Positions 17,461 through 19,439 of a stretch of 34,223 nucleotides of DNA are shown one piece after another; position 1 is the stretch's first letter; every line of letters begins with the position of its first letter. A model generated the notes under the pieces. It searched no databases. It saw nothing but the letters and a program-made list of their open reading frames with translations, and was not told the DNA's origin. Source of the DNA: an uncultured Coriobacteriaceae bacterium (GTDB lineage: Bacteria > Actinomycetota > Coriobacteriia > Coriobacteriales > Coriobacteriaceae); the NCBI GenBank assembly GCA_944320725.1, contig CALUIM010000017.1:1-34223 (forward strand), written 5' to 3'. A program made the translations under genes and the position numbers.

Positions 17461-17590
17461 CACGTTGTGTGTGGTGCTTCAGCGCGTTGTGTGTGGTGGG
17501 TTGCCGCGTTATGTGTGGCAAAGCGTCATCTAGACCAGCGAAGATGCGGATTTGCCGCACATAAACGCACGACCGACCACACACAACCGC
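17461..17590 (+). repeat. Complex palindromic repeat element, copy 1
   Basis: Three direct sites GTTGTGTGTGG-like at 17464, 17486 and 17508 (exact 22-bp period) are followed by a central dyad (CATCT...AGATG, 17527-17546) and two inverted sites at 17555-17566 and 17577-17587. The inner halves are also mutually complementary, so one strand could fold into a long imperfect hairpin. By eye 87 of 102 positions (17486-17587) match copy 2 at 19132-19233, in the same orientation. It contains no gene. Similar short frames on its minus strand are artefacts of the repeat. Confidence 0.85.
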
Positions 17591-18066
17591 AGAAAGGGCC
17601 ATGTCGTGAAAGGAAATTGGATGATCTGAGCTGAGCGCGGAGCTGAAAGCGGGATATGGAATCGAGCTGGATTCGAGATTGGCGGCAAGAACTAATTTGA
17701 GGCTGAATGAATGGAGGGGATATATGGCTGATGCTCCCAATGTGTCCATATAAAATGATAATTTGCAGCATCCGGACAAGCCGCCCACCGATAAAATGCA
17801 CCGTCTGCGGTTTGCTATTGTTGGCCTTCACAAAATATCAATCGCTTGAGCAGCTTTGTTAGATATTGGTAAGACTTTCTGGAAACACTGTAAGATTCTC
17901 CCCTCTCTGAATCTCGTATGGTCTTGTGAGCAGGAAGTTTGGCGGAAACCCATAAGGGTTTCCGCCAAACAGATGCGCGCCCCGGAAGCTCGGCTGACGC
18001 CTGGCGACAGACGGCCGCTGCTCCGAAACTCATCTCCGAGAAAGACGCCAAACGGATTGGAGGGCC
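17591..18066. other. AT-richer gap between repeat copy 1 and the nuclease-like gene
   Basis: About 475 bp with lower GC than the neighbours and no credible gene. A 270-residue minus-strand frame starts inside the gene at 18067 and runs out here, but it has no family features. The gap includes A/T-rich promoter-like sequence near 17750-17770 (ATATAAAATGATAATTTG) and the perfect hairpin at 17937-17970. The plus-strand gene is probably transcribed from within this stretch. Confidence 0.45.
17937..17970. repeat. Perfect 15-bp hairpin in the upstream region of the nuclease-like gene
   Basis: GTTTGGCGGAAACCC (17937-17951) is followed after the 4-nt loop ATAA by its exact reverse complement (17956-17970). 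There is no T-run on either side, so it is not an ordinary terminator. It lies 96 bp before the start at 18067 and could be a leader RNA structure, an operator, or a REP-like element. Confidence 0.7.
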
Positions 18067-19041
18067 ATGTACCAACGACACAGCCAACAGATAGAACAAG
18101 GCCTGAATGATGCAGAGCGTTTTCAGCGATTCTTCTCGCCTCCGTCGGCGGCCCTTCTCGACGCCTGCCACCGTCGCAAACGAGCGGGATTGCTCGCCTC
18201 GCCACTGCCCCGATGCTTTGCACGCTCGGCATATCTCAAGAAGCTGTCGAGACGCGAGCGCGACATTCACGCCATGCGCACCCTCACCCAGATAAGGCCG
18301 AGCTGGATGTTCTGCTCGTTTTCCGCGGCGCTTGCCTACGGGCTTCAGGTGCCCGATTCGTTGCTCGGAACGCTGCACATCGCCGTCGGCGCGCACTCCA
18401 ACCGAAAAAAGCTCGTTGGCTTCGCAAAATGCCATGTGGTATGCGGCGATAGGCGCCGGATGCAGTTTGGCATTCCGGTCACTTCGATTGAGCGGACGCT
18501 TCTCGACTGCATGTGCAGCACCGATTTCTGCCGCGGCCTCGCTATCGTCGACTCCGCTCTGCACTGGGGACTGATCACGCGCGAGCGCCTGGAGAGCTAT
18601 GTAGACGAGAACGGCAAGCGGAGGCATGGAATCCAGAATGCGAGAAAGGTGATGCGCTACGCCGATGGGAGAAGCGACAACGGGGGAGAATCCATTGTTC
18701 GTGGCATCATTATCGAGCTGGGTTTCGATATTCCCGAACTGCAGGTCGAAGTTGACGATCCCATGAATCCAGGCGCGCCGAAGGTGGTCGACTACCTATG
18801 GGTACTCGCCTGCGGAATCGTCATTCTCGAGCTGGACGGCATGAATAAGTACCGTGCGCCGCAGAAAACCGATGCCAACGCTGTGGAAGAGACGCGTCGC
18901 AGGCTCGCTGCCGAGCGGCGACGAGAGTCGCATCTCAATCTTACGGGCGCGAAGGTAATCAGAGTCTCGTTTGCGGAAGCGACCGATAGGGAACATCTCC
19001 GTCGGATCCTCATGATGGCAGGCGTACCAATCGTGCGATAG
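18067..19041 (+). CDS. AbiEi-like / PD-(D/E)XK (DUF559/Vsr-like) domain protein
   Basis: A 324-residue protein of a type common in Coriobacteriia genomes. The middle part (about 60-190) resembles the AbiEi antitoxin-like region: RDIHAMRTLTQIRPSWMFCS, SAALAYGLQVPDS, and ITSIERTLLDC-like PVTSIERTLLDCMCS. The C-terminal part (about 215-320) has a nuclease-like pattern of acidic residues: Glu in NGGESIVRG, Asp in KVVDYLW, and ILELDGMNKY, where the ExD in a beta-strand matches the DUF559/Vsr PD-(D/E)XK fold. No toxin partner (AbiEii) is adjacent. GGAGGG lies very close to the ATG (2-3 nt), so the start is slightly uncertain. It stands alone, is flanked by two copies of a large repeat and sits in lower-GC DNA, which suggests a mobile or defence cassette. 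Function not established. Confidence 0.72.
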   Translation: MYQRHSQQIEQGLNDAERFQRFFSPPSAALLDACHRRKRAGLLASPLPRCFARSAYLKKLSRRERDIHAMRTLTQIRPSWMFCSFSAALAYGLQVPDSLLGTLHIAVGAHSNRKKLVGFAKCHVVCGDRRRMQFGIPVTSIERTLLDCMCSTDFCRGLAIVDSALHWGLITRERLESYVDENGKRRHGIQNARKVMRYADGRSDNGGESIVRGIIIELGFDIPELQVEVDDPMNPGAPKVVDYLWVLACGIVILELDGMNKYRAPQKTDANAVEETRRRLAAERRRESHLNLTGAKVIRVSFAEATDREHLRRILMMAGVPIVR

Positions 19042-19108
19042 GACGCAGCGATGATGCCTGGATGCGGCGCGACAGCGGGAGCCACGCCGGTGAATACGCC
19101 ACCAAGTG

Positions 19109-19236
19109 CATTGTGTGTGACACGCCGGCACGTTGTGTGTGGTGGGTCGGCGCGTTGTGTGTGGTAATTCGCCATCTAAACCTACGAAGATGCGGATATG
19201 TCACACATAAGCGCACGACCAACCACACACAACGGC
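19109..19236 (+). repeat. Complex palindromic repeat element, copy 2
   Basis: Same layout and orientation as copy 1: direct sites at 19110 (ATTGTGTGTGA), 19132 and 19154 (GTTGTGTGTGG), again exactly 22 bp apart, a conserved dyad with CATCTA...CGAAGATGCGGAT, then inverted sites at 19201-19211 and 19223-19233. It begins about 70 bp after the stop of the nuclease-like gene. The spacing and central segment are conserved better than the outer bases, which argues for function rather than chance low complexity. Confidence 0.85.
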
Positions 19237-19439
19237 AGCAAGGCTCACTGGAAGGAGCGCAGCGAGACCATGAAAACGGGAATGTGGCAACGCGCGCAGG
19301 CCTCAAAATGACGACCAACCTACCGTTGTCGGATTAAATCGCACGCACACCAAGTTTGTGGCGACGCACGCGCCGGACGGGGCTAGAATGGCGGCGATGC
19401 GCTGCGCCGGATGATGTGGCGCATATGTCTCGGGCGTTT

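Follow-up and report, generated by a model that had tools for sequence, protein, structure and literature searches.

What is the relation between a gene and the two large palindromic repeats that stand on either side of it? The question arises from a stretch of 34,223 nucleotides of an uncultured Coriobacteriaceae bacterium (hereafter the window), in which the initial annotation had described two such repeats with a 22-bp site period flanking a nuclease-like gene. The repeats are real: they have the same orientation and about 130 bp each, and appear as a direct repeat of 133 nt with 82% identity and a spacing of 1646 (17465-17597 and 19111-19243). The annotated identity of about 85% over 102 bp agrees with a recount of 87 identical positions out of 102 in the core of the two arrays, whose characteristic sequence is called here word A (Table 1). 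Sites of like orientation lie exactly 22 bp apart, at 17464, 17486 and 17508 (+) and at 17555 and 17577 (inverted) in the upstream copy, and at 19110, 19132 and 19154 (+) and 19201 and 19223 (inverted) in the downstream one. The first site of the latter (ATTGTGTGTGA) and the inner inverted sites are degenerate. Both arrays fold more strongly than shuffled sequences (z -4.7 to -7.1), with hairpin energies below those of all shuffles.

Table 1. Features of the repeat-flanked locus, in window coordinates.
Feature	Position	Strand	Description
Upstream palindromic array, word A	17464..17587	+	Three GTTRTGTGTGG sites at 22-bp spacing, central dyad CATCT-N10-AGATG, two inverted sites
Promoter-like region	17858..17923	+	Direct repeats GTTAGATA / GGTAAGAC / TGTAAGAT, then TATGGT
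Gene, 324-aa protein	18067..19041	+	Predicted AbiEi fold (residues 4-200) and Vsr/EDxHD-type nuclease fold (203-321)
Downstream palindromic array, word A	19110..19233	+	Orientation as in upstream copy

That the sites could be protein sites on double-stranded DNA, as proposed originally, is supported by an alignment of the five full copies of word A in the window's genome (G000; 2.07 Mb, 20 contigs) with one from the sibling species (G001). The six sequences align without gaps over 106 columns, and the 102-bp core is free of indels in all of them, the sibling's included. The R of GTTRTGTGTGG and its would-be pairing partner, which meet at two column pairs, form an A-C mismatch in two of the six sequences, and several spacer pairs of the array are broken. 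Because R varies independently of its stem partner and the spacers pair poorly, word A would be better explained as a degenerate site read by a protein on duplex DNA than as a conserved stem of RNA, a suggestion that comes from these six sequences. A structured RNA was rejected on these same two grounds and for the lack of an Rfam match over the repeats, the search of the window having returned tRNAs only. Intrinsic terminators were also discarded, the corresponding scan being not clearly above shuffles.

The description of the enclosed gene as nuclease-like is borne out by the predicted fold of its product (AlphaFold2 model, pLDDT 92.5). Residues 4-200 match an AbiEi structure (6y8q_A, Z 11.8) and residues ~203-321 match I-Bth0305I (3r3p, Z 9.9) and Vsr (1cw0, Z 9.5), the Foldseek E-values for these structure matches being weak; PADLOC gives an AbiEi match (E 1.7e-7). 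No Pfam or NCBIfam model, Y1_Tnp included, matched any of 37 members of the family, in all of which E208, D242, E255, D257, K261, E283, R284, R286 and R299 are invariant; the first five of these are candidates for the E-D-x-H-D set of catalytic residues known from 3r3p. AbiEi antitoxins bind 23-bp inverted repeats (PMC7319586), a length close to the 22-bp spacing of the window sites, and by this precedent the window protein may bind its ~22-bp-spaced sites.

The same precedent feeds the main rival explanation, a regulatory or defence role, which we consider rather unlikely. On this view the gene would encode a chromatin or transcription factor of local action that uses the palindromes as boundaries or operators; the solo copies described below would form its regulon, and the nuclease would be an effector kept latent, for instance in defence against phage. 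AbiEi proteins do bind inverted repeats to regulate their own genes (PMC7319586), the protein falls close to AbiEi in PADLOC, and response-regulator-like direct repeats occur upstream of part of the genes: at least one such pair was found in 23 of 79 loci, against 0.65 on average in shuffles and 0 downstream, with a pattern picked after some of the loci had been seen. The promoter-like region of the window is kept in the sibling species and similar ones lie upstream of part of the homologues. However, both palindromes are outside this region, the downstream one lying past the stop codon, and therefore control of the surrounded gene, as had been suggested for the repeats, is not indicated. It also counts against the regulatory rival that no toxin partner gene (DUF1814 nucleotidyltransferase) adjoins the window gene, next to which lie genes for a CoA-enzyme activase and an oxaloacetate-decarboxylase-like product. 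As separate observations, the direct repeats of the window (GTTAGAT/GTAAGA type, 10-12 or 21-22 bp apart) with their TATGGT resemble an OmpR/PhoB-type response-regulator box, and the gene leader carries a perfect 15-bp inverted repeat (GTTTGGCGGAAACCC, 17937-17970) that is not conserved in the sibling.

In a sample of one genome per species, homologues of the gene were found in 62 of the 67 genomes of the window's family and in 111 of the 298 of the class, all of them in the window's order, Coriobacteriales. Upstream and downstream flanks were compared with each other by blastn under permissive scoring (E<1e-4), and for this reason the claim of paired flanks is carried by the controls, not by the E-values. 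Matching pairs were present in 26 of 42 loci of the window's family versus 2 of 200 cross-locus controls, and in 29 of 40 loci of two other families of the order versus 3 of 150 controls; random gene-sized gaps gave a flank match in 9 of 229 cases, several of them coding-like. Altogether, 55 of 82 loci, about two thirds, have the gene enclosed by two similar repeats, and the test detects no pair at the remaining third. The two flanks match in both orientations at 46 of the 55 loci with a pair, which fits palindromes, since these must match so. A stricter hairpin scan finds palindromes on both sides in a smaller set of loci. The window repeats are one case of a pairing of nuclease gene and palindromes that extends across Coriobacteriales, and the link between repeats and gene family that had been put forward holds. 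Neither word A itself nor a conserved 22-bp spacing turned out to be a family trait: word A is private to its lineage, other members having other words, and spacings of 20-22 bp are common among members but 15, 30, 45 and others are also present, so that exactly 22 bp is a trait of some words, not all.

The words are private, being common only to close relatives. In a comparison made on a partly different set of 82 loci (58 with a pair), locus pairs below 60% protein identity shared a word in 1 of 1615 cases, and the proportion was 4/14 at 60-70%, 1/4 at 70-80%, 3/5 at 80-90% and 15/15 at 90% or more, this last group being one set of Collinsella orthologues. Such tracking of protein identity by word likeness may in part reflect shared descent of the whole locus. 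The stronger point comes from a single locus pair, the syntenic locus of the window's genome and its sibling, in which the nuclease proteins are 69% identical and the neighbouring OADA 98%. There, upstream and downstream copies are 79.5% and 61.2% alike within a genome, versus 54.8% and 42.9% for the orthologous copies between genomes. The word sets of the two sibling species differ as well, which argues against the regulatory rival.

Copies away from the gene were sought genome-wide for three words, namely A, word D of a second paralogue in the window's genome, and one Collinsella word, and solo copies without a gene do exist. Besides the two flanking arrays, the window's genome holds three further full copies and one half copy of word A, all solo, and the paired-site pattern occurs six times in it versus zero in a reversed control. 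Word D has five solo copies in addition to two flanking ones, and the Collinsella word was present in all 10 genomes searched, one of which (G041) has 14 solo sites after strand merging. A crude ORF call places 24 of 26 solo sites between genes, and the two exceptions overlap ORFs that may be spurious; the sites show no preferred gene orientation, contrary to what a regulon would suggest. Among 84,980 species genomes, in a scan from which the window's own record was possibly left out, word A was found only in the sibling MAG (an uncultured Coriobacteriaceae bacterium, CALUFC010000001.1), apart from single matches scattered over unrelated taxa, which were judged to be chance. A phage or plasmid element was considered and rejected, as the protein matches one phage record (28% covered) and two plasmid records, one of these a Collinsella record of 899,693 bp, and the two words sought in viral contigs were absent from them. 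In another genome of the sample (G024; C2:172412 = L099, C3:187904 = L063, C15:5743 = L064), a word two letters from word A, CGTTTGGTGTGG, is found at two places, and sites resembling it (CACACCAAAYAG) lie downstream of the homologue L099.

One Collinsella intergenic site was followed through 23 genomes, with junctions obtained for 17. One of them (G035) has a 40-bp remainder without palindromes and the others hold differing mixtures, indicating that palindromes come and go at this site; no clean insertion of a single element and no target duplication were seen in the 17 junctions. Here and at L282, L286 and L288, another palindrome family (AGTCATTGGGGACGTTCTTAAACGACTAG type) and further hairpins occupy the same intergenic spots as the Collinsella word, and at one site the combination differs from species to species. 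Comparable intergenic regions carry word D in the window's genome (L168, near 9671) and another perfect palindrome, GTGTCAAAGTGACCATTAAGAGCC, in the sibling (L165, from 6463), the latter possibly related to the flank of a paralogue of that species (L133).

The sharing of one intergenic site by several palindrome families lends some weight to the view that an IS200/RAYT transposase moves the palindromes, which would be ordinary REP-like elements that the nuclease genes merely adjoin, and Y1_Tnp genes are indeed found in 7 of 9 genomes of the genus, with one in the window's genome. This explanation is nevertheless very unlikely, given that two of the genomes (the sibling G001 and G008) have no Y1_Tnp match, that no A or D word lies near the Y1 loci examined, that matching repeats bracket the nuclease gene at 55 of 82 loci, and that neither GTAG nor CGTC is found at the ends of the two window copies. 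The sibling has palindromes all the same.

Is the whole unit mobile? In two related genomes (G014, G009) the CoA-activase and OADA genes are adjacent, the nuclease gene is absent and the scan used revealed no palindrome between them, from which it follows that the module of gene and palindromes is gained or lost as a whole at the window locus. At the same locus two further genomes (G005, G006) have other open frames and other palindromes, and unrelated open frames replace the module upstream of OADA at three loci in other genomes of the genus (L153, L154, L161). The initial annotation had envisaged a mobile or excisable cassette; its mobile side is in keeping with the absence of the whole module in the two relatives, and no excision was seen. 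As a full explanation, a gene cassette would make palindrome-gene-palindrome the mobile unit and the solo copies scars of recombination between flanking copies. The direct orientation of the two window copies and the module-free relatives are as this would predict, but the empty sites with a single remaining palindrome that had been expected are not found at the window locus in gene-free relatives, the Collinsella word has far more solo sites than gene loci, and at 18 of the 55 positive loci the flanks match best in inverted orientation, which together make it a distinctly improbable account.

On balance, we favour by a modest degree of confidence a gene-linked palindrome system that resembles REPIN/RAYT and is run by an unrelated protein with AbiEi and Vsr/EDxHD nuclease folds. 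It is supported by the order-wide pairing of gene and palindromes, the private words, the solo copies of three words, the closer likeness of flanking copies within than between genomes at the one syntenic locus, the absence of the module as a whole and the strictly kept nuclease residues; counted against it are the third of loci without a pair, the lack of a clean insertion junction at the Collinsella site, the Collinsella palindromes in genomes whose cognate gene is not among the matches listed, as at the site described above, and the one Y1_Tnp gene of the window's genome. We infer that this nuclease system binds, cuts and moves the palindromes. The AbiEi region would bind ~22-bp sites in inverted arrays around a central dyad, and the nuclease would act on such arrays, perhaps once a hairpin is extruded or where bound molecules meet at the dyad. 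The ensuing repair or recombination would keep the two flanking copies alike and occasionally seed copies in other intergenic sites. That an AbiEi-directed, sequence-specific nuclease of the Vsr/EDxHD type cuts its own palindromes and, through recombination, both spreads them and keeps them uniform, in a drive evolved independently of HUH transposases, is a credible idea that we hold more tentatively.

REP-like palindromes have so far been tied to one type of enzyme, the RAYT Y1 transposases, with a CGTC class having no known partner (PMC3733652), and a search of the literature, with subscription journals mostly outside its coverage, found no paper that connects palindromes of this sort with a gene of the AbiEi type or a DUF559 gene. 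The present family brings an unrelated nuclease with REPIN-like gene-repeat logic, throughout a bacterial order and in a multitude of private words. Should the proteins recognise and cleave these words, they would constitute many naturally paired nuclease specificities, add a second and independent example of the persistence of such repeat populations, and give some of the palindromic DNA between Coriobacteriales genes a partner.

Three known systems can be compared with it. The fold of residues 4-200 is that of AbiEi antitoxins of AbiE type IV toxin-antitoxin systems (6y8q; Rv2827c, 1zel; PMC7319586), whose 23-bp inverted repeats are close in length to the 22-bp site spacing of the window arrays. 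Unlike these antitoxins, the window protein is fused to a nuclease, has no adjoining toxin gene, and is accompanied by arrays that lie clear of the promoter-like region, the downstream one past the stop codon. The fold of residues 203-321, with its invariant acidic residues and lysine, recalls the EDxHD homing endonuclease I-Bth0305I and Vsr (3r3p, 1cw0, 1vsr); in contrast to the former, the gene lies between two intact arrays instead of interrupting one target site, and its product has an AbiEi-type N-terminal region. The closest known kind is REPIN/REP with RAYT (REPtrons; PMC3116915, PMC3733652). In both, a single-copy gene adjoins a palindrome family of its own, inverted doublets form hairpins, solo copies lie between genes, one genome can contain distinct families, and gene and repeats are proposed to co-evolve. 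The differences lie in the protein, which has AbiEi and Vsr/EDxHD-type nuclease folds instead of being a HUH Y1 (IS200/IS605-like) transposase, and in the arrays of spaced sites, present in few copies per genome and, in the window, without GTAG/CGTC ends. Since the gene-repeat logic matches and the enzyme does not, the nuclease system is best regarded not as a member of REPIN/RAYT but as its functional analogue.
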